This document shows positions 37,011-49,975 of a DNA stretch of 64,000 nucleotides, piece by piece (positions within the stretch are counted from its first letter, which is position 1; each line of letters starts with the position of its first letter). The translations under genes were made by a program, and so were the position numbers. The stretch is from positions 1,297,589-1,361,588 of the forward strand of contig NZ_QPMJ01000001.1 of NCBI RefSeq assembly GCF_003369835.1, written 5' to 3'. Source of the DNA: Halorussus rarus. Lineage in GTDB: Archaea > Halobacteriota > Halobacteria > Halobacteriales > Haladaptataceae. Below the pieces are notes generated by a model. It was not told where the DNA came from. It saw nothing but the letters and a program-made list of their open reading frames with translations, and made no database searches.

Positions 37011-37701
37011 GGCCGTGTTCAGTTAAGAGTGAGGCGGTCGTGCTTCGGTTGTCCTATGACCAAAAACGACCGCCTCAGTGGTTCTAGTCCGTGGATCGAC
37101 TTGGCGTTTGTGGAGCGAGAACGGACACCCCAGCCTGCGATTGAAGTAGGTATTCGCCTCCACTTGGCGGGACTTTCACTCTCGAATACCAAACGAGAAC
37201 TTGAAAAGTTGGGTGTCGAACGGAGTCGCACCGTGATCCACAACTGGGTGCAGAAAGCCGATCTACAGCCGACTAGCGATTCAGTTCCGAATCAGATTGC
37301 AGTAGACGAGACGGTGATTCGGGTCAATGGTGAACGGTGTTGGCTGTACGCCGCGGTCAATCCCGCAACGAACGAATTCCTCCATGTACGGTTGTTTCAG
37401 ACACTTACGACTCAACTCACGGTGCTGTTCTTGAGAGAACTCCGCGAGAAACAGCAGGTCGAGCAAGCCACGTTTCTGGTCGATGGAGCGCAGCATCTTC
37501 ACACGGCGCTGACCCGGCTAGGGCTCCGATTTCAGTATGTTCGCCATGGAAATCGGAACCGCGCTGAACGTGTCTTCCGCGAGGTAAAACGACGAACCTC
37601 ATCGTTTGCGAATGCATTCCGCAACACTGAGATAGAAACAGCTGAATCGTGGTTGCAAGCCTTCGCCGTCTGGCACAACTCATGCCAAACTTAACACGAC
37701 C
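37011..37701 (+). mobile_element. IS6-family insertion sequence, 691 bp, apparently intact
   Basis: The left end GGCCGTGTTCAGTTAAG (37011-37027) and the reverse complement of the right end (37685-37701, GGTCGTGTTAAGTTTGG) match at 13 of 17 positions. One transposase gene fills the element. GC content is clearly below that of the neighbours. The perfect target duplication suggests a recent insertion. It lies between the GH5-like promoter and the replication origin. Confidence 0.9.
37056..37694 (+). CDS. IS6-family transposase
   Basis: The protein has 212 residues: an N-terminal helix-turn-helix (SLSNTKRELEKLGVERSRTV) and a DDE catalytic domain with D84 in AVDETVIRVNGE, D143 in LVDGAQHL and E171 in NRAERVFREVKRR. 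Family members transpose by cointegrate formation. The frame is complete with no stop or frameshift, so the element may still be active. Base composition is less GC-rich than in adjacent genes. Confidence 0.93.
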   Translation: MTKNDRLSGSSPWIDLAFVERERTPQPAIEVGIRLHLAGLSLSNTKRELEKLGVERSRTVIHNWVQKADLQPTSDSVPNQIAVDETVIRVNGERCWLYAAVNPATNEFLHVRLFQTLTTQLTVLFLRELREKQQVEQATFLVDGAQHLHTALTRLGLRFQYVRHGNRNRAERVFREVKRRTSSFANAFRNTEIETAESWLQAFAVWHNSCQT

Positions 37702-38075: not shown

Positions 38076-38134
38076 CAGCGGAACGGGTGGTTTCGACAGC
38101 TTCATACCTCCGCCTCGATTCCGCCCCGAACACG

Positions 38135-39349
38135 ATGGGCTCTTTCGACTTCGTCAGGGAGTACTCACCCTACACCAACCGCGAGGCGCTGCTGGACGAC
38201 TACACGCCCGACACGCTGGTGGGCCGCGACGACGAACTGGACGAGTATCACGGCGCGCTCCAGCCGGCCATCTACGGCGAGCAGCCCGACAACATCTTCC
38301 TCTACGGCAAGGCCGGGGTGGGCAAGACCGCGGCCACGCGCTTTCTCCTGAACAAGCTCGAGGACAACGCCGAGCAGTACGACGACCTCGACGTCCGGAC
38401 CGAGATCATCAACTGCGACGGGCTCAACTCCTCGTACCGGGTCGCCAGCAACCTGGTCAACACGATGCGGAACCCCTCGAACCACATCAGCGAGACGGGC
38501 TACTCGCGCTCGCAGGTGTACGACCTGATGTGGGAGGAGCTCGACGACTACGGCGGCATCATCCTCATCGTGCTCGACGAGATCGACCACCTCAAGGACG
38601 ACTCCATTCTCTACCAGCTCTCGCGGGCCCGCGAGAACGAGAACCTCACCGAGGCCCGCATCGGCCTCATCGGCATCAGCAACGATCTCACGTTCCGCGA
38701 CTCGCTCTCGCCGAAGGTCCGCTCCTCGCTCTGCGAACGGGCCATCTCGTTCTCGACGTACGACGCCAACGAACTCCGGGCGGTGCTCGAACAGCGCAAG
38801 AACGTCGCGTTCAAGGACGACGTGCTGACCGACGACGTGGTCCCGCTCTGCGCCGCGTTCGGCGCCCAGGAGTCGGGCGACGCCCGGAAGGCGCTCGACC
38901 TCCTGCTGAAGGCCGGCGACCTCGCCCGCGAGGAGAACGACGAGGAGGTCACCGAGCAGCACGTCCGCCGCGGCCGCGAACTGTTAGAGCGCGAGCAGGT
39001 CGCCCGCGGCATCGCGGACCTCAACGACCACGAGCGGCTCGTCGTCTACGCCCTCGCCACGCTCGAAGCCGAGGGCGACACCCCGGCCCGCTCTCGCGAG
39101 ATCTACACCCGCTACAAGTCGCTGGCCGACGCCGCCGGTAAGAGTCCGCTCACGGCCCGCTGGCTCCGCGAGCACCTCGACGACCTCGCCATGCTCGGCA
39201 TCCTCAACGTCACCGAGATAAACGAGGGGTCGGCCGGCGGCAAGTACCGGGAGTACGACCTCCAGCAGGACCTCGCGGTCGTGCTCGACGCGCTCGAGGA
39301 GACGTTCGAGTCGATGGGCGTCCACGCGAGCGTGAAGGACTACCTCTAG
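38135..39349 (+). CDS. orc1: Orc1/Cdc6 replication initiator
   Basis: The protein has 404 residues. The AAA+ core has Walker A GKAGVGKTA (58-66), Walker B LIVLDEIDHL (DEID 148-151) and sensor 1 GISNDL. A C-terminal winged helix (from about 300, RLVVYALATLEAEGDTPARS) binds origin DNA. The N-terminal DDYTPDTLVGRDDELDEY is the typical Orc1/Cdc6 lead-in. It would bind the repeats just upstream and load the MCM helicase. The ATG at 38135 gives the conserved start; a TATA-like TTCATA lies about 30 bases upstream. A T-run follows the stop. Confidence 0.95.
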   Translation: MGSFDFVREYSPYTNREALLDDYTPDTLVGRDDELDEYHGALQPAIYGEQPDNIFLYGKAGVGKTAATRFLLNKLEDNAEQYDDLDVRTEIINCDGLNSSYRVASNLVNTMRNPSNHISETGYSRSQVYDLMWEELDDYGGIILIVLDEIDHLKDDSILYQLSRARENENLTEARIGLIGISNDLTFRDSLSPKVRSSLCERAISFSTYDANELRAVLEQRKNVAFKDDVLTDDVVPLCAAFGAQESGDARKALDLLLKAGDLAREENDEEVTEQHVRRGRELLEREQVARGIADLNDHERLVVYALATLEAEGDTPARSREIYTRYKSLADAAGKSPLTARWLREHLDDLAMLGILNVTEINEGSAGGKYREYDLQQDLAVVLDALEETFESMGVHASVKDYL

Positions 39350-40047: not shown

Positions 40048-42657
40048 GTGCAGAACGGGGACGGGGACTCGACAGTGGCACTCGACTACCAGCGCGTCAT
40101 CGACTGGCTGGACGACCGCATCGTGGAGCGACCGGGCCGGGTTGTCGCCGCCTTCCTCATCGTGACCGCGGTCTTCGCGGTGGGCGCGTTCCAGGTCTCC
40201 ACTGAGTCGGGCACCGAGAGCTTCGCCGAGGACGTGCCCGAGCAGACCGCGCTGGAGGCGGTCGACCGGGAGTTCGAGTCGCCCTTCGGCCCGGCCACGA
40301 CCACGACCCAGCTCGTCCACACCGGCGAGAACGTCGTCTCGAAGCGCGGCCTGACCCGGATGCTGACGCTGCTCTCCCGACTCGACGACCGGACCGAACT
40401 CCGGATCGTCGGGACGACGAGCCCCGCGAGCGTCGTCGCGCGCACGCTCGACCCGAACGCCACCACCCCCGAGGAGCAACTCCGCGCGGTCGAGCGTGCT
40501 TCGCCCGCGCGCGTCGATGCCGCGGTCCGGGCCGCCGCCCGCGATAATCCGGCCTTCCGGACCCTGCTGAGCGAGGACTTCAATCCCGTGTCGGCTCGCG
40601 CGTCCGCGTCGGTCTCGCTCGTCGAGCACGCCGTCCCGGCGCTCGCCGACGAGGGGTCGACCGGAACCGACCCGCTGACGCCCATCCAGCGCCAGATGCA
40701 GCGAGTTGCGGCCTCGGTCGGCGGCGACGTCCGGGTGTTCGGCGCGGGCATAATCGCCGACGAGTTCGGGAGCGTCATCGGCGACACGCTCGTCATCGTG
40801 GTCCCGGCCGCCGCGATTCTCATCGTCGTCTTCCTCCTCGTCGCGTACCGCGACCTCGCGGACCTGCTGGTCGGCGTCGCCGCGCTCGTGATGGCCATCA
40901 TCTGGACGTTCGGCTTCATGGGGTTCGCGGGCATCGCGTTCAACCAGTTGCTCATCGCGGTCCCGCCGCTCCTGCTCGCGGTCGGCATCGACTTCGGTAT
41001 CCACGCGGTCAACCGCTACCGGGAGGACCGCGAGGCGCTGGTCGCGGGCGAAACGGCCGCCGGACCCGGCGACGACCTCGTCGGGGCCGCGATGCGGCGC
41101 GCGACCGACCAGTTGCTCGTCGCCTTCTTCATCGTCACCGCCACCTCGGTCATCGGGTTCGCCTCGAACCTCACCAGCGCGATCGGACCCATCCGGGACT
41201 TCGGCGTCGTCGCCAGCGTCGGCATCGTCTTCACGGCGCTCATCTTCGGCGTCTCCGTCCCGGCGGCCAAGGTCCTGCTCGACCGCGCCCGAGAGCGCTA
41301 CCCGATCCCGACGTTCAGCCAGCGACCGCTCGGCTCCGAAGACTCGGCGCTGGGTCGGGCGCTGACCGGCGGGGTCGTCGTCGCCCGGCGCGCGCCGATC
41401 GTCTTCCTCGTGGTGACCGCGGCGCTCACGGCCGGCGCGACCGGCTACGCGACCGGGGTGGACACCTCCTTCAGCGAGGAGCAGTTCCTCCCGCCCGCGG
41501 AGACGCCCGGCTACCTCCGGGCGCTGCCCGAACCGTTCAGGCCGAACGAGTACACCGTCACGCGGGATATCAATTTCCTCCGGGACAACTTCGAGACCGG
41601 GGAGGACGAGCAGGTCGTCGTCTACGTCGAGGCGCCGATGACCCGCGACACCGCCCTGGAGACCGTCCACCGGGCCGGCGCGGACCCGCCGGACACGTTC
41701 GTCGTCGAGGACGGCCGCGCCAGCGAGCGGAGCATCGTGACCGTCGTCCGGTCGCTGGCCGCCACCGACCCCGAGTTCGCCCGGCTGGTCGCGCGCAACG
41801 ACCGGGACGGCAACGGGGTCCCCGACGACGACCTCGGAGCGATCTACGACGCGCTGTTCGACTCGGAGTACGCCGCGCTCGCGAGTCAGTACCTGGCAGA
41901 GGACCGCCGGAGCGCCCGCGTGGTCTACGCGGTCGAGGCCGACGCCGACCCCGCCGAGGTCACCGAGGACGCCCGAACGGTCGCCGACCGCTACCGGTAC
42001 GAGGCCGTCGCCACGGGCGACATCGTGGTGTTCCAGGCCATCGCGGACCTCATCTTCGAGTCGGCCATCGTCAGCCTCGCGGTCGCGCTCGCCGGCACCG
42101 CGGTCTTCCTGGTCCTGGTCTACGGTATCCTCGTGGGCCGGCCCTCGCTCGGCGTCGCGAACCTGATTCCCATCGTGGTGACGGTCGCGGCGCTCGCGGC
42201 CACCATGCGCGCGGTCGGCATCTCGCTCAACGCCTTCACCGCGACCGTCCTGGCCATCACCATCGGACTCGGCATCGACTACTCGGTCCACGTCGTCCAC
42301 CGGTTCGTCGACGAACTGGAAGCAGGAGCCGGGTCGGACGAATCGCCGGCGTCCGCAGGCCGGTCCGACTCGCCCGGCGGAAGCGACCCCCGTGCCGCGC
42401 TCTCGCGGACCATCACCGGCACGGGCGGCGCGCTGACCGGCAGCGTCCTCACGACCGTCTTCGGCATCGGGGTGCTCGTGCTCGCAGTGTTCCCGGCTAT
42501 CGGCCAGTTCGGCCTGCTCACCGCGCTGAGCGTGGTCTACTCCTACGTCGCGTCGCTCGCGGTCCTCCCGTCGGTGCTCGCCGTCTGGGCGCGGTACCTC
42601 GGCCCGGGCGCGTCGCTCGACGCGGCCGACGGAGCCGTCGCTCGAGAGGCGGAGTAG
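40048..42657 (+). CDS. RND/MMPL-family exporter
   Basis: The protein has about 869 residues. After one N-terminal helix (RVVAAFLIVTAVFAVGAF) there is a large outer domain, a first helix bundle (about 40780-41280), a second outer domain and a second bundle (about 42050-42620). Each bundle has the sterol-sensing-type motif: GIDFGIHAVNRY and GLGIDYSVHVVHRF. The Asp residues are likely proton-relay residues. Such proteins export lipids or hydrophobic compounds using the proton gradient. The start is a GTG at 40048 (or 40075); no ATG fits. It converges on the S-layer glycoprotein gene, so it could serve the envelope, but this is inference. Confidence 0.85.
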   Translation: MQNGDGDSTVALDYQRVIDWLDDRIVERPGRVVAAFLIVTAVFAVGAFQVSTESGTESFAEDVPEQTALEAVDREFESPFGPATTTTQLVHTGENVVSKRGLTRMLTLLSRLDDRTELRIVGTTSPASVVARTLDPNATTPEEQLRAVERASPARVDAAVRAAARDNPAFRTLLSEDFNPVSARASASVSLVEHAVPALADEGSTGTDPLTPIQRQMQRVAASVGGDVRVFGAGIIADEFGSVIGDTLVIVVPAAAILIVVFLLVAYRDLADLLVGVAALVMAIIWTFGFMGFAGIAFNQLLIAVPPLLLAVGIDFGIHAVNRYREDREALVAGETAAGPGDDLVGAAMRRATDQLLVAFFIVTATSVIGFASNLTSAIGPIRDFGVVASVGIVFTALIFGVSVPAAKVLLDRARERYPIPTFSQRPLGSEDSALGRALTGGVVVARRAPIVFLVVTAALTAGATGYATGVDTSFSEEQFLPPAETPGYLRALPEPFRPNEYTVTRDINFLRDNFETGEDEQVVVYVEAPMTRDTALETVHRAGADPPDTFVVEDGRASERSIVTVVRSLAATDPEFARLVARNDRDGNGVPDDDLGAIYDALFDSEYAALASQYLAEDRRSARVVYAVEADADPAEVTEDARTVADRYRYEAVATGDIVVFQAIADLIFESAIVSLAVALAGTAVFLVLVYGILVGRPSLGVANLIPIVVTVAALAATMRAVGISLNAFTATVLAITIGLGIDYSVHVVHRFVDELEAGAGSDESPASAGRSDSPGGSDPRAALSRTITGTGGALTGSVLTTVFGIGVLVLAVFPAIGQFGLLTALSVVYSYVASLAVLPSVLAVWARYLGPGASLDAADGAVAREAE

Positions 42658-42698: not shown

Positions 42699-45600
42699 TT
42701 ACGCCGAACCGCCGACCGCCGGAGCGACCGCCGCGGAACTGCTCGCGGTGGTGTTCGTGAGCTCTCCGGGCTCGATCTCCTCGCCGTCGAGGACGAACAC
42801 CGCGTTGGTGAGGTCGCCCTCGGCCGACACGTCGAGGACCTGGCCGACGAACTCGTAGACGTCGGCGTCGTCACCGGTGACCTGACCGGTCACGGTGCCG
42901 TCGTCCCGGACCTCGTCGGTCTCCTCGACCTGGTCGTCGACGGCCTGAACGTTGCCGGCGAACGAGATGGTGTAGTTCAGCGACTCACCCTCGGTCCGGA
43001 TCTCGAGCGTGTGTCCTGCCTGTGCTACGTCCTGGGTCTGGTTACCCGCGGCGGCGGTCGTCTCCTCGCCTACGTCGCCGTCATCTTGCCCCGCCGCGGT
43101 CGTCTCATTTCCCTCTGCGGTCGTCGTGGTCGTCTCGTTACCTGCCTGGTCTGTCTGTTCGGTCGTAGTGGTCGTAGTCGTCTCGTCCTGCTGGCCCGCC
43201 GGTACGACCTCGAACTGGACGATGTCGGTGTTGTCACCGTCGTCCACCTCGAGGGTGTAGGTACCGGGCTCGACGTTCTGAGCGCTCAGGTTGACCGACC
43301 AGACGCCGTTCCGGCCCCACTCGTCGGTCGCGGCCGAGTCGAACTCGCTCGCGCTCGGGCCGTCGATGACCTCGACAGTGATGGTGTTGTCGTCGGGCCG
43401 CCGGTTGGTCAGCCCCCGGACGGCGATGTCCTGGCCGACCTCGATGGGCTGGACCTGCGTCTGGAACCCGGGCGTCACCGGCTGGTCGGCCTGGGCCTGC
43501 GGCAGGATGGCCGACACCGACGTCGCCGCGTCGGCGTACCGGAACGTCTGGGTGAGCGTCAGGTCGTCGCTGCCCGCCTCGTCGGTCGTCTCGTCCGTGA
43601 TCCGCTCGCTGACCTGTTCCTGGGTCAGACCGGCGCCGAAGCTCGCGATCCACGACTCGAGCGAGGCGAGGTCGGCGTCGTCGACGCCGGGCAGGACGCC
43701 GTCACCGACGACGGTGTCCCGACCGAGGCCGATGACCATGCCTCTGATCTGTCCCTCGTTGAGCTGCCGGCCCTCGCGGGTGACCAGCTCGATGTCGTCC
43801 TCCTCGAAGACGTCGTTGTCGTCGACGCTCACCGTCTCGGTGACGGTGCGGCCGCGCGAGTCGATCATCACGACCAGCACCTCGTCGAGACCGGGCGCGA
43901 CGCCCGTGACCTCGACGGTGCCGTCCTCGACGGCGACCTGTTCGTTGTAGGTGCGGAAGACCCACGTCGGGTTCCGGGTGGGCTCGGCCTCCGGCTGGGT
44001 CGTGTTGTTCTCCTGGTCCTGGAGCGCCATCGGCGAACCCGCGCCGAAGGTCGCCGCCAGCGAGGCGTTACCGCCGCCGCCGAGCGTCGGCTCGGTGACG
44101 ATGATGGAAGTCTGCTCGCTGGTCGCACTGCTGAAGTCGGACGTCGACAGCGTCTCGGCGACGTTCCCGTTCTGGGCCACGTCGACAGCCTCGACGACCC
44201 CGAGCCGGTAGCGACCGGGGATGCTCAGGATGTCGTTGGCCTGCGAGAGGGTGACGTCGCGCTCCTCCCACTCGCCGTCGGCGTCGACGCTGATGAAGTC
44301 CTGCTGGCTGAGCTCGCCGTCCTCGTTGATGTCGACGAGTTCCCAGTCGCCCTGGTCGCGGACGTAGACCGCGACGTCGTCCACGCCGGGTGCGGCCGTC
44401 CCCCGCACGTCGATTTCCTGCCCGGCGATGTAGGTGCCGGCCGGACTGTCGACGTTGAGCTCGCCCTCGGAGATGTCGAGCGAGAGGTCGTCCTCCGTGT
44501 CGCCGACGTCGTCGGCGATCTCCGAGAGGTTCTGGTCGGCCTCGTAGAGGTTGACGTCCACGCTCGTGTCGTCGAGGTACGTCGTGTCTATCTGTCCGAC
44601 GCCGAGGCCGGTGTCGTCGTCGACCTCGACCTGCGCCCACGCGAGGTCGGCGTTCCCGTCGTCGTTGGTGTCGAGGCTACCGCGGTCGATGGTGTCCTCC
44701 ACGTCGCGGAAGACGCGCTCGTCGACCTGGTTGTTCCGGAAGTCGGTGTCCTCGATGGTGACGAAGTGGGTCGCGCCGGCGGCCGAGCCGCGGATGGTGT
44801 AGCGGACGTTCTCGCCGCGCGTCGCGTCGTCAGTCTCGAGGTCGAGGACGACGTTCTCGTCGCCGGTCACCGAGACGACCGTCGACCGGGTCGCGGCCCC
44901 GTAGTCGAGGTTGTCCCAGCCCTCGACCGTGATGGTGTAGTCACCGGCGTTCTGGTCGCTCAGGTCGATGGCCCAGTAGGCCGCGTCGAGGTCCTGCGTG
45001 GGTCCTTCGGTCTCGTTGAGCTGACCGAGTCCCTGCAGGTACTCGATACCGGTCTCGGTACCGCGCTGACCCGGGTTGGCGACCAGCGCGGGGTTCTGGG
45101 CGTAGGGGCCCTGGAGGCGCTCGCGCTGCTGGTCCGAGAGCTGGCCGACCTCGGTGAGCACGTCGCCCGTGATCTCGTTGCCGTCCTCGTCGGTGACCTC
45201 GAGCGAGAGGTCCTCAGCGCGCTGGAAGTTCCACTCGGCGCTGATGAGGAGGGTCTCGTCCTCCTGGACGGTCGACCCCTCGACGTCGACGCCGCGCTCG
45301 TTGAACACCTCGAGGTCGGTCACGCGCGGCGTCTGGACCGTGACGCCGATGTTCGCGGCCCGACCGTCGATGGCGTACTGACCGAGCTCCTGGTCTTCCG
45401 GGATGGGCGATTCGAGCGGGATGCCCTCCGCGTTCCCGGAGACCCCGATGAGGTTCGAGGGATTGATCTCCTGGCCGTTCTCGGTTATGAAGTCGATGTC
45501 GTCCTCACCCTGGAAGACGACCGGTTTCTGCTGGGAGACGACGACGTCGTTCGGTCCGCCGACCCCCGGATCGAACGTCGGCTGCTCGCCCCCGCGCTGT

Positions 45601-45704
45601 ACGTCGGCACCTAGGACCGCCCCCGACATCGCGATCGTCGAGAGCACCATCAGTGCCGTAAGTACGAGCGCACTCGATTTATTTCTCGTTAATCGTGTAT
45701 TCAT
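42699..45704 (-). CDS. csg: Major cell surface (S-layer) glycoprotein
   Basis: The protein has 1001 residues. A signal peptide of the haloarchaeal S-layer type (RNKSSALVLTALMVLS, residues 8-23, cleaved near ADVQ) starts it. A long acidic beta-rich ectodomain follows (about 35-835), with about ten N-x-S/T sequons (for example N230, N392, N805). Then comes a Thr/Glu stalk (about 840-890, with TTTTTTT) suited to O-glycosylation, and a further small beta domain (about 897-980). The chain ends AVAPAVGGSA without the PGF motif, hydrophobic helix and basic tail that normally anchor such proteins, and no other frame supplies them. It should form the crystalline wall lattice. Confidence 0.92.
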   Translation of the reverse strand: MNTRLTRNKSSALVLTALMVLSTIAMSGAVLGADVQRGGEQPTFDPGVGGPNDVVVSQQKPVVFQGEDDIDFITENGQEINPSNLIGVSGNAEGIPLESPIPEDQELGQYAIDGRAANIGVTVQTPRVTDLEVFNERGVDVEGSTVQEDETLLISAEWNFQRAEDLSLEVTDEDGNEITGDVLTEVGQLSDQQRERLQGPYAQNPALVANPGQRGTETGIEYLQGLGQLNETEGPTQDLDAAYWAIDLSDQNAGDYTITVEGWDNLDYGAATRSTVVSVTGDENVVLDLETDDATRGENVRYTIRGSAAGATHFVTIEDTDFRNNQVDERVFRDVEDTIDRGSLDTNDDGNADLAWAQVEVDDDTGLGVGQIDTTYLDDTSVDVNLYEADQNLSEIADDVGDTEDDLSLDISEGELNVDSPAGTYIAGQEIDVRGTAAPGVDDVAVYVRDQGDWELVDINEDGELSQQDFISVDADGEWEERDVTLSQANDILSIPGRYRLGVVEAVDVAQNGNVAETLSTSDFSSATSEQTSIIVTEPTLGGGGNASLAATFGAGSPMALQDQENNTTQPEAEPTRNPTWVFRTYNEQVAVEDGTVEVTGVAPGLDEVLVVMIDSRGRTVTETVSVDDNDVFEEDDIELVTREGRQLNEGQIRGMVIGLGRDTVVGDGVLPGVDDADLASLESWIASFGAGLTQEQVSERITDETTDEAGSDDLTLTQTFRYADAATSVSAILPQAQADQPVTPGFQTQVQPIEVGQDIAVRGLTNRRPDDNTITVEVIDGPSASEFDSAATDEWGRNGVWSVNLSAQNVEPGTYTLEVDDGDNTDIVQFEVVPAGQQDETTTTTTTEQTDQAGNETTTTTAEGNETTAAGQDDGDVGEETTAAAGNQTQDVAQAGHTLEIRTEGESLNYTISFAGNVQAVDDQVEETDEVRDDGTVTGQVTGDDADVYEFVGQVLDVSAEGDLTNAVFVLDGEEIEPGELTNTTASSSAAVAPAVGGSA

Positions 45705-45860
45705 TTTGTTTGTCTCGTTTCGCTAGTGCGAAATTCCGTACCGCATCGCTGTTCTGCTGACGGTACCCCCCATCCTGCCGTCCGTGTTCGTCAAATCGTA
45801 CTCACCGCCTCCTGCTTGCTCGCGTGTTTCACCTCGGGGAAAGTGGACGCCAGAATCGGG

Positions 45861-45868
45861 TATAAAGC
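45861..45868 (-). promoter_or_regulatory. Probable TATA box of the S-layer gene
   Basis: CTTTATAC on the minus strand would place transcription start near 45836, giving a leader of about 130 bases. This is unlike most genes here, which look leaderless. Confidence 0.55.
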
Positions 45869-45957
45869 GGGTTGAACGTTTTCGAGCGGAGGTCCTAGGT
45901 ATGCCCTAATACGACGGGTCCACGGCTGACTGACTCTGAGTAACCCCGATTACCCCC

Positions 45958-46001
45958 ATAGGCCGAGAATATATGCGAACTGGACCGGAGATAGGCCGAG
46001 A
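45958..46001. repeat. Direct repeat ATAGGCCGAGA in the S-layer upstream region
   Basis: The 11-mer occurs at 45958-45968 and 45991-46001, 33 bp apart, about three helical turns. A shorter match, ATAGGCCG, lies near 46240. It could be an activator site. Confidence 0.5.
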
Positions 46002-46464
46002 GTAGTGTCGGAATTTGCTCACTCCGGGATTCGGTCACTCGCTGTCTCTACGTCACTCTCCGACGGAGAAATACGGACAGGACTCCCCGTTACGGCCGAT
46101 TTCGGCGCAGTGGGACCTGCCAGATATATCGGAAATATAACTGTACGGTGAACGTCAGGTTAGGGTAAGCCAACTGAACTGTAAAATTTCCCGAATTATC
46201 GGTTCCCGGCCGGAACAGACGCTCGCTCGCAACCACTTATAGGCCGTTATCAGTCGATTGTCAGCGGACGCTCCGGCTAGCGGGGCGATGGTCAGCGGGT
46301 AGCGCGGGTAACTGACCACATCACGTAGTCGGGCGTTCGTTACCGGAATCGACATCGGGAATTACGGCCGCTGCTGGGGCAGAAGATTCACCCGAATAAT
46401 CACACAACTACGTTTGCCGGTTCCCGTGCTCGCGCGCGGACAGACGACGAGCGTACTGTCGCGT

Positions 46465-47523
46465 TCAACCGCGGACGTCGCTCTGCGAACGCACGCCTGC
46501 CGTGCGGTTCGCTGCCGATTCGCCCTCCCGCGGAAGGACGCGGACAACGAAGCTGTCCGAGTCGTCGCCGTCATCGGCCTCGACCGTGTAGGTCCCGGGT
46601 TCGACACCGGTGGCGTTCAGTTCGACCTGCCAGACGCCGTCGGTCCCCCACGTGTCGGTCGCACCGAAGTCGAACGCGTCGGCGCTCGGCCCCTCGGTCA
46701 CCTCGACAAATATCGTGTTGTCGTCGGGCCGGAGGTTCGTGAGCCCCCGGACGACCACCGTGTCGCCGGCCCTGATCGGTTCGACCGGCCCGGTCCCGTC
46801 GAGCGCCGACGCCGGGAGGACGCGCTCGATGGTGGTCCGTCCGTCGGTGTAGACGAACTCCTCGGCCAGCAGGAGGTCGTCGCTGCCGGCGTCCTCGACG
46901 GTCTGGTCGTAGAAGAGCTCCACCACCTGTCGCTGGGTCCGCGAGATAGTCCGATTCGCCACCCGCTGGCCCACGATGTCGCGGAACGCCGTCTCGAAGT
47001 CCCCGAGGTCCGCCCGGGTGACACCCGATATCTCGCCGTCCCCGACCAGCCCGTCACGGCCCGGCGAGAGGACCGTCGCCACGACGCGGCCCTCGCTGAG
47101 CGGCGTCCCGTCGTCGGTGACGAGCGCGAGGTCGTCCTCCTCGAACGCCCTGTCGTCGACCGAGACGAGTTCCGTCACGACCCGGCCGCGGCGGTCGACG
47201 AGGACGGCCAGCACCGCGTCGGTTCCGGTCGCGTTCCCTCGGACGGTCACGGTGCCGTCCTCGGTCGCCACCTGTCCGGCGACGTCCCGGTAGACGGTCG
47301 CGTCGTACTCAGGCGACGACCGGTTGTCGTCCGCCGCCTGCGACGCCGGAACCGGATCGAAGGCGGCCGCTGATTCCACCGTCCTCGTCGGTTTCTCCGT
47401 CGCGAGCGACGTTACCGCCCCGAGCGACGCCGCCGTTAGAGACGATGCTGCCACGAACAGTGCGACGCCGACGGCGAGAGCCGTCCGCTCTCGGTGCGTC
47501 AGCCGCGCGTTCGAATCCCCCAT
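46465..47523 (-). CDS. Secreted paralog of the S-layer glycoprotein C-terminal half
   Basis: The protein has 352 residues with an N-terminal hydrophobic signal (ALAVGVALFVAASSLTAASL). From about residue 88 to 330 it aligns with residues 593-835 of the S-layer protein: shared are EDGTV, RGRxVTE, VSVDD, FEEDDxxLVT, RPDDNTI, EPGTYT and others. It ends soon after, lacking the Thr stalk and any membrane anchor. Three N-x-S/T sequons are kept (N97, N303, N339). Tandem placement upstream of the S-layer gene on the same strand suggests partial duplication. It could be a minor lattice or adapter subunit. Confidence 0.85.
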   Translation of the reverse strand: MGDSNARLTHRERTALAVGVALFVAASSLTAASLGAVTSLATEKPTRTVESAAAFDPVPASQAADDNRSSPEYDATVYRDVAGQVATEDGTVTVRGNATGTDAVLAVLVDRRGRVVTELVSVDDRAFEEDDLALVTDDGTPLSEGRVVATVLSPGRDGLVGDGEISGVTRADLGDFETAFRDIVGQRVANRTISRTQRQVVELFYDQTVEDAGSDDLLLAEEFVYTDGRTTIERVLPASALDGTGPVEPIRAGDTVVVRGLTNLRPDDNTIFVEVTEGPSADAFDFGATDTWGTDGVWQVELNATGVEPGTYTVEADDGDDSDSFVVRVLPREGESAANRTAGVRSQSDVRG

Positions 47524-47623: not shown

Positions 47624-49975
47624 TCAGGACAGCAGTCGGGCGATGGCCTCGTGCTTCCACCAGACCACCGCGCCGAGAACGACCACGGCCCCGAGGCCGA
47701 GCAGGACCGGCGCGACGCCCCCGGTCGGCAGCGGGAGCCCCCGGCCCTCGGGTTCGACCACCTCTATCGGCACCCGATACGTGTCCGACAGCACCGTATC
47801 GCCCCGCGCGTTCTCGTACGTGAAGTCGACCGACACCGGGTAGGTCTTGGGGATCGCGCCGCCGGCGGCGCCGAGGCCGAACCGGAGGACCGTCGACTCG
47901 TCGGGTTCGAGTCGCGAGACGAACGCCTCGTCGTTGTCGGTCGACAGCGGATCGCTGGCGAACAGCTTCGCCTCCACGTCCCGGAGCGTCTCGTTCGCGG
48001 CGTTGGTCACCCGGAACGCGACGACCGTCGAGTCGCCGGCCGGGAGGGTCGCCTCGACCGGCTCGACCCGGAACTCGTCGACGTCCTCGGCGACCTCGAC
48101 CCGGGCGTCCGCGCTGTCACTCAGCCGCAGGTCGCCCTCCCGGTTCCGGTACCGGACCCGGAACGACACCTGGCGCGGTCCGGCCTCGGCGTCGCCGGTC
48201 ACGTCCACCGTGAACTCGAAGGGAGCCGACTCGCCGGCGGCGAGCCTGCCGACCGCGTACTCGGTCTCGCGCGGGTCGAGCGTCGGGTTGTTCGTCCGGA
48301 GCACCACGACCGCGTTCGAGACCGGGCGGTCGCCGGCGTTGACCACCTCGCCGACGAGGTCGCCCGCGTCGCCGACCCGGAGGTCGCCGGTCACGTCCTC
48401 GACCCGGAACGTCTGTTCGGCGCCGACCCGGACGCTGGCCGGCAGCGAGTCGCTGACCCGGGTCTCGCCCTGGTCGTTCCGGTACCGAATCCGGAACGAC
48501 ACCTGCCGGACGCCCGGATCCGTGTCGTTCGGCACCGCGGCGTCGAAGCTGAAGTCGGCGGACTCGCCGGGCGCGAGCGTCCCGACCGCGAACTCGGTGG
48601 TCCGGGGCTGGAGCGTCGTCCCCTCGGTTCGCAGGACGACCACCGCGTCGGAAGCGTTCGTCTCGCCGGTGTTGACCACGGTGCCCGAGACGGTCCCCCG
48701 GTCGCCGACCTGTAGGCCGGTCGCGGTCGCGTTCACCGCGAAGCTCTGCTCGCGGGCGACCGCGACGCGGGCGTCGATGGGGTCGCTCCGCCGGGTCTCG
48801 CCCTCGGCGTTCCGGTACCGGACCCGGAACGACACCTGCCTCGGGCCGGGGTCGGTCGTGTTCGCGGTGTCGATGCGGAAGCTGAAGTCGGCGGACTCGC
48901 CCGGAGCGAGCCGGCCGACCGCGACCTCGGTCGAGCGCGGCCGGAGGTCGGTCTCGTTGCTCGCGAGAACCACCACGGCGTCCGAGACGTTCGTATCGCC
49001 CGTGTTTTCCACCCGGCCGGTGACCAGCCCCGCGTCGCCGACCCGGAGCGAGCCGTCGACGCCCCGGAGCGCGAACGTCTGCTCGGTGCCGACCGCGACC
49101 CCGAAGGTGAGCCCCTTCGACCGCCCGGACACGCCGTTGGGGGTCTCGTAGGCCACCACCGCGTTGGCGAGGTACGTCCCCGGCGCGGTGTCGGCGGACG
49201 CGCCAACGGTGACCTCGAAGGTCCGAGAAGCGCCGGGGTCGAGCCGGTCGACGAAGACGCTGGTCCGCTGCTGGGGCGCCTCGCCCCCGCCGAAGAACAC
49301 CGACGAGTTCGCCGCCGAGAGGGTCACCTGGGCGTCGACGGCGGGCTGGGTCCCGGTGTTCGTCAGGTTCAGCCGGTAGGTCGTCGTGTCGCCCGCGGTC
49401 ACGCGCGTGAGGTTCTGCGCTCGAATCGCGAACCGGGGCTGGTCCTCGACGACGACGGTGACGTATGCCGTGGTCGAGCGCGAGGCGTCGCCGTACTCGG
49501 GGGCCCGCCCCGGGCCGTAGCGCACGAAGTTGGTGTAGTCGTAGCTCACCTCGACCGGGAGCTCGTACGTGCCGGGCGAGAGCGAGTCGGCGATCTCCAG
49601 ATTGAACGCGTACGGGCCGGAGACGCCTTCGGGGACCGAGCCGGCGAAGACCGTACCCGTCTGGACCTCGACGTTCCGCGCGAGCCGGCCGCTCATCCGC
49701 GACTCGTCGACGTCGAGGCGCACGTTCCGGGCGGTCGTCACCCGCCGTTCGTACTCGGCGGGTCCGCCCCGGTCGAGGTCGCCGCTGTTCGAGACGAACA
49801 CCTCGAGGGTAGCCTGCTCGCCCGCGCCGAACCGGTTGTCGGTCGCCGAGAGCTCCAGGTCGGGGCGACCGACGACCGTCCCCTCCTGCTCCTGGGCGAG
49901 CGCGGGGGCGGAGGGGGTCGCCGCGGTCGCGGCGAGCATCGCCGCCGCCACGACTGCGAGCGCGGTGACTCTCAT
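47624..49975 (-). CDS. Membrane-anchored COG1361-type envelope protein with 111-residue repeats
   Basis: The protein has 783 residues: a signal peptide (LAVVAAAMLAATAATPSAPALA), then CARDB/COG1361-type beta-sandwich domains. The domains include three tandem repeats of exactly 111 residues (297-407, 408-518, 519-629), each with RVGDAG-like, DAVVVL, LAPGESADFSF and RQVSFRVRYRN blocks. A C-terminal helix (about 755-774, APVLLGLGAVVVLGAVVWW) and a short basic cytosolic end anchor it. Many sequons suggest glycosylation outside. Proteins of this type often accompany exporters or S-layer genes as structural surface proteins. No enzymatic site is seen. Confidence 0.85.
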   Translation of the reverse strand: MRVTALAVVAAAMLAATAATPSAPALAQEQEGTVVGRPDLELSATDNRFGAGEQATLEVFVSNSGDLDRGGPAEYERRVTTARNVRLDVDESRMSGRLARNVEVQTGTVFAGSVPEGVSGPYAFNLEIADSLSPGTYELPVEVSYDYTNFVRYGPGRAPEYGDASRSTTAYVTVVVEDQPRFAIRAQNLTRVTAGDTTTYRLNLTNTGTQPAVDAQVTLSAANSSVFFGGGEAPQQRTSVFVDRLDPGASRTFEVTVGASADTAPGTYLANAVVAYETPNGVSGRSKGLTFGVAVGTEQTFALRGVDGSLRVGDAGLVTGRVENTGDTNVSDAVVVLASNETDLRPRSTEVAVGRLAPGESADFSFRIDTANTTDPGPRQVSFRVRYRNAEGETRRSDPIDARVAVAREQSFAVNATATGLQVGDRGTVSGTVVNTGETNASDAVVVLRTEGTTLQPRTTEFAVGTLAPGESADFSFDAAVPNDTDPGVRQVSFRIRYRNDQGETRVSDSLPASVRVGAEQTFRVEDVTGDLRVGDAGDLVGEVVNAGDRPVSNAVVVLRTNNPTLDPRETEYAVGRLAAGESAPFEFTVDVTGDAEAGPRQVSFRVRYRNREGDLRLSDSADARVEVAEDVDEFRVEPVEATLPAGDSTVVAFRVTNAANETLRDVEAKLFASDPLSTDNDEAFVSRLEPDESTVLRFGLGAAGGAIPKTYPVSVDFTYENARGDTVLSDTYRVPIEVVEPEGRGLPLPTGGVAPVLLGLGAVVVLGAVVWWKHEAIARLLS
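48089..49087 (-). repeat. Three 333-bp in-frame tandem repeats
   Basis: The copies at 48755-49087, 48422-48754 and 48089-48421 encode the 111-residue repeats. Length is conserved exactly, while sequences have drifted, so the duplications are not very recent. Confidence 0.75.

Follow-up and report, generated by a model that had tools for sequence, protein, structure and literature searches.

A csg-type S-layer glycoprotein of the haloarchaeon Halorussus rarus retains the lattice core of its family and lacks each element of the C-terminal signal associated with dependence on the archaeosortase ArtA. S-layer proteins of the Euryarchaeota typically end in a PGF motif, a transmembrane (TM) helix, and a basic tail, with ArtA mediating their lipid anchoring (PMC8559796; PMC7157517), the same three elements being common to the haloarchaeal S-layer proteins of several genera (PMC8875312). 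The loss of this signal is almost certainly real and clade-wide. Non-covalent attachment of the protein to the cell is probable, and the fuller reading, that of an ArtA-independent csg branch held non-covalently by a membrane-bound partner, likeliest a CARDB-repeat protein encoded beside it, falls just short of an even chance.

The csg-type Gene and Its Product

The window analyzed here comprises 64,000 nucleotides of H. rarus contig NZ_QPMJ01000001.1. Within it, the csg-type (HVO_2072 family) gene occupies positions 42699-45704 of the minus strand, from an ATG at 45704 to a TAA stop at 42701-42699, and encodes 1001 residues; a plus-strand frame across the same interval was rejected as the gene. 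A first-pass annotation of this DNA had called the product an S-layer glycoprotein, an assignment borne out by a score of 549.7 bits against TIGR04216 (HVO_2072 family ArtA-dependent S-layer glycoprotein), for which the cut-off is 400, and by the match of a profile of its orthologs to the Haloferax volcanii csg structure 7ptp (E 1e-123) and to three more entries. The alignment to 7ptp falls into three stretches (profile positions 75-192, 247-545, and 584-882) that cover nearly the whole lattice core, so that the Ig-like lattice domains of csg are present in the H. rarus protein. The protein is a candidate for forming the cell-surface lattice.

The domain order can be followed along the minus strand. 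A Sec-type signal peptide (residues 1-33; 45606-45704; hydropathy maximum 2.21), with Ala preceding the presumed cleavage site (-1), is matched weakly by TIGR04207 (16.1 bits, under its cut-off). The lattice core, which corresponds to the Ig-like domains in Haloferax csg, spans residues 75-836 (43197-45482) and leads into a fast evolving Thr-rich stalk (about residues 837-896; 43017-43196), a C-terminal beta domain (about residues 897-987; 42744-43016) that takes the place of the PGF-CTERM tail, and a short tail ending in AVAPAVGGSA (42702-42743), in which the ortholog alignment shows VA to be invariant and P nearly so. Signal peptide, Ig-like core, acidic composition, and Thr stalk are shared with H. 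volcanii csg (TIGR04216; 7PTP and related entries), whereas the Halorussus stalk ends in a beta domain and has no PGF-CTERM tripartite tail. Judged on its sequence, the protein belongs to the csg family by its core and lacks the mark of ArtA dependence. The AlphaFold2 (AF2) model of the whole protein is too poor for use (pLDDT 43.6).

The coding region is preceded by a conserved, long upstream region (45705-46464, minus strand) in which a TATA-like box is located at -162 and two exact, inverted copies of TTAGGGYAWRCC at 45898-45909 and 46160-46171. Even when one mismatch is allowed, the window contains no others; the two are possible regulator sites, defined by a pattern derived after the sites had been seen. 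A hidden small membrane gene in this region was considered and rejected, as there is no conserved open reading frame with a TM helix. Elsewhere in the window, an IS6-family transposase gene (37029-37694) lies near an orc1/cdc6 gene (38087-39349).

Absence of the ArtA-dependent Anchor

The first-pass annotation had described a C terminus in which a Thr stalk, a beta domain, AVAPAVGGSA, and a stop follow one another with no usual anchor and no hydrophobic helix in the downstream frames, and each part of this description holds. Beyond the signal peptide no hydrophobic helix was found in the protein, the top Kyte-Doolittle 19-residue mean being 1.41 and the last 40 windows all lying at or below 0.80. 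It contains no internal hydrophobic or tripartite segment, and a lipobox is ruled out by the lack of cysteines. In about 600 bases downstream, read in three frames, neither a PGF motif nor a hydrophobic helix occurs (maximum 0.97). None of the three elements of the ArtA-dependent signal occurs in any of the 11 Halorussus copies.

These copies comprise the H. rarus protein and its orthologs in 10 further Halorussus genomes, which are full-length, 68-84% identical, and of identical ending type (NSS-VAPAV-like, then stop); those of H. salinisoli, H. ruber, H. aquaticus, and H. amylolyticus (68-83% identity) occupy the same locus. Proteins above the family cut-off occur in 11 of 18 Halorussus genomes, H. 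rarus included, and in none of the other 7. The C-terminal domain evolves faster than the core yet mostly under purifying selection, with dN/dS at about 0.3-0.5 for four comparisons out of five and 0.87 for the fifth, against 0.12-0.37 for the core. Because all 11 copies end alike and the terminal domain is mostly under purifying selection, the anchorless ending has become fixed in the lineage.

Two explanations would remove the need for any other form of attachment or for any loss at all. An uncleaved signal peptide could act as the membrane anchor, the N terminus being the sole strongly hydrophobic helix of the protein; this is very improbable in view of the Ala at -1 in nearly all orthologs and the correspondence of the region to an ordinary csg signal peptide. 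Errors of sequencing, assembly, or annotation that delete a PGF-CTERM tail do exist, as in genome G384, where a run of N (an assembly gap) precedes a PGF-CTERM in another frame, but for Halorussus this cause, which the first-pass annotation had thought worth checking at the 3'-end, has a negligible chance of being correct: the 10 congeners with the same ending, the conservation of the domain, and the absence of PGF from every downstream frame mean that neither chance nor sequencing error explains the missing anchor.

Distribution and Phylogeny

The distribution of the anchor was surveyed in 392 genomes of the order, 52 of which contain TIGR04216 proteins over the cut-off. The best 30 of these proteins outside Halorussus, read directly, all end in PGF-CTERM; matches that stopped early were inspected singly, and the few remaining proteins were judged only by whether the match reached the end of the model. 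Inspection removed three apparent exceptions, G384 for the assembly gap described above, G198 since its contig end cuts inside the PGF tail, and G336 since a real PGF-CTERM is present. In three further genomes the lack of PGF is genuine. The csg protein of G353 has nothing after the stalk (TPETNESS, then stop), and those of G284 and G311 (L167, L168) end in PARSG, a terminal hydrophobic helix, and RRR, a tripartite arrangement without PGF that may represent a different sorting signal or simply a TM anchor.

In a maximum-likelihood tree, the Halorussus proteins and those of G353, G284, and G311 form one clade with 100/100 support, set on a long stem apart from the PGF forms. Its 14 members (11 from Halorussus, three from two other genera) span three families, and outside it essentially all csg family proteins in the sample retain PGF-CTERM. 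The simplest reading of the tree would be a single loss of PGF-CTERM that has given rise to three different present-day ends; as the clade members span three families, horizontal transfer of the csg locus is also possible. Full-text searches of a collection with few subscription papers turned up no csg-type protein described as lacking the PGF-CTERM tail.

A CARDB Protein as Candidate Partner

The first-pass annotation had suggested that a nearby repeat-containing membrane protein might hold the lattice. This protein, of 783 residues with CARDB repeats (47624-49975, minus strand), has a signal peptide at its N terminus and, near the C terminus, a TM helix (47663-47719; 19-residue Kyte-Doolittle mean 2.46), and is the best candidate for a membrane anchor of csg. 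All 14 clade members have a CARDB-type gene immediately upstream of csg, and none occurs within about 9 kb at four PGF-anchored csg loci. Close orthologs of csg, of the CARDB gene, and of an RND/MMPL-type permease gene occur together, in one identical set of 11 among the 18 Halorussus genomes, with no CARDB ortholog in the other 7, a coincidence that for one linked locus counts as roughly one observation. The permease gene (40050-42657, plus strand, start uncertain) is convergent with csg and is recognized by its HAE3/MMPL matches.

CARDB (COG1361-like) proteins pair with RND/MMPL permeases, and the make-up of the Halorussus protein bears on which of its two neighbors it serves. In G353, G284, and G311, the protein encoded directly upstream of csg matches only CARDB residues ~1-295 and has no second TM helix; no RND gene was found near csg in the roughly 20 kb examined in each of these genomes. 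In the csg-less congener G017, a CARDB protein with a TM helix, matching residues 296-774, is encoded a few bases from an RND gene. The N-terminal part of the Halorussus protein aligns end to end with the TM-less secreted protein of G353 (35.7% identity, E 8e-57) and its C-terminal part, TM helix included, with the RND-operon protein of G017 (37%, E 1.6e-86), the cross-matches being much weaker. Thus, the Halorussus protein resembles RND/MMPL-paired CARDB proteins in its C-terminal part and TM helix and differs from them in an extra N-terminal module that in other genomes is encoded beside csg by a gene of its own; apparently, a secreted module linked to csg has been fused with a membrane-anchored one linked to RND. 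The fusion is thus seen where csg itself lacks a membrane tail, which makes the strongest case for a partner that serves as anchor.

The distribution of TM helices across the clade is largely in keeping with such a division of labor. Exactly one of the csg and CARDB genes encodes a C-terminal TM helix in 13 of the 14 members: the TM-bearing CARDB gene adjoins csg in all 11 Halorussus genomes, and the csg neighbor is TM-less in G353, G284, and G311. The counter-case is G353, in which neither protein has a TM helix. Moreover, because a CARDB protein pairs with RND in G017, the Halorussus protein could instead serve the RND transporter as an accessory. The earlier suggestion is supported as to the choice of candidate. 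As the main anchor of csg, the CARDB protein is a tentative choice, somewhat below even odds.

The locus contains a further csg-like gene. Between the CARDB and csg genes in 5 of the 11 genomes lies a truncated csg paralog (46465-47523, minus strand; 188 bits against TIGR04216, below cut-off), secreted and without an anchor, that corresponds to the last third of the lattice core (model positions 481-714) and may cap the lattice or form its edge. Another shortened csg-like protein, also secreted and encoded by a 424-residue frame at C2:207004-208182 of the same genome (L003, L076; model positions 350-730), has counterparts in G002, G007, and G008. In the H. ruber genome, a second fragment of csg, N-terminal and interrupted by in-frame stops, looks degenerate (G016:C1:251971-252918; L043).

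The C-terminal Beta Domain and a Proposed Two-component Coat

The beta domain at the tip of the stalk (AF2 model, pLDDT 83) is not confined to csg. The H. rarus genome contains 10 further copies in 7 other reading frames (L087-L096), with E values no higher than 1.2e-4 for 8 of the copies; most of these proteins carry a twin-arginine signal and lack any recognizable membrane anchor, and the domain is sometimes terminal on beta-helix proteins. It also occurs on many haloarchaeal plasmids, in proteins annotated as "hypothetical" or "right-handed parallel beta-helix". No Pfam family was found for it, a sequence search of the PDB returned nothing credible, and a Foldseek search of the PDB gave no match at E < 0.001, the top hits, to cellulose-binding and cohesin-like beta folds, reaching no better than E 0.06.

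A plausible two-component model can be framed around this domain. Sec would export the csg-type protein, lattice assembly would depend on its Ig-like domains and on divalent cations, and the beta domain at the stalk tip would dock non-covalently on a membrane-bound partner, likeliest the single-pass CARDB protein encoded just upstream. An analogous strategy is represented by the SlaA (lattice) and SlaB (anchor) proteins of the Sulfolobales (crenarchaea), with which a csg protein lacking its own anchor and a separate membrane-anchored partner would work alike; the likeness is one of working only, implying no homology, and the part given to the CARDB protein in it is inferred. That haloarchaea have evolved a two-component S-layer of their own, in which an unlipidated csg is tethered via its stalk-tip beta domain to a dedicated CARDB fusion membrane protein, is a more tentative proposal again, with roughly a one-in-three feel to it.

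Other Coat Proteins and Other Modes of Attachment

The cell retains the ArtA system. Genome-wide searches, on which these counts rest, identify ArtA (322.7 bits) and at least 16 PGF-CTERM matches over cut-off, and beside artA lie two tandem genes for S-layer-like proteins of 812 and 846 residues, each with a BGTF domain, Thr stalk, and PGF-CTERM (L137:964-6409). Like csg, ArtA-dependent NF041335/BGTF proteins encoded beside artA are S-layer-like with a Thr stalk; unlike it, they keep PGF-CTERM and have a core of a different family. The pair are candidate main coat proteins, and a second, lipid-anchored coat protein may therefore be present in the cell. As the csg protein coexists with ArtA and this pair and is missing from 7 of 18 congeners, it may be neither the sole nor the main lattice protein, and the first-pass claim that the lattice must be held in another way was too strong. 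That annotation had also looked toward another PGF-CTERM-anchored protein that binds csg; the two proteins beside artA are further membrane-bound candidates for that role.

A related possibility is that the ArtA-lipidated pair builds the main lattice and csg is an accessory or outer layer that rests on it and needs no anchor of its own. The tandem arrangement beside artA, the presence of a PGF-CTERM stalk protein near artA in nearly all Halorussus genomes examined, with or without csg, and the patchy occurrence of csg all favor this arrangement. It is nevertheless unlikely, given that csg keeps a full lattice core and that the pair, at 170 and 145 bits, fall far short of the 1100 required by the S-layer equivalog model NF041335. 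Codon adaptation, an uninformative proxy for expression here as ribosomal proteins are not outliers, did not decide whether csg or the pair is expressed more.

Less likely still is that the CARDB protein belongs to the RND transporter alone, with its adjacency to csg an accident of the locus and csg held otherwise, for example by Mg2+ bridging to lipids or glycans. Mg2+-dependent binding of a haloarchaeal S-layer extract to liposomes (PMC8875312) is consistent with such bridging, as is the csg-free CARDB-RND pair of G017 with a transporter role. In G353, G284, and G311, however, the CARDB N-terminal module adjoins csg with no RND gene found across the roughly 20 kb examined, and the link to csg is therefore independent of RND.

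However the protein is held, the clade bears on how the family is understood. The designation "ArtA-dependent" is misleading for the whole PGF-less csg branch, and the occurrence of that branch in cells that retain ArtA suggests that the lattice core needs no lipid anchor of its own. The PGF-less csg proteins thus constitute a natural system for testing what anchors the archaeal S-layer.
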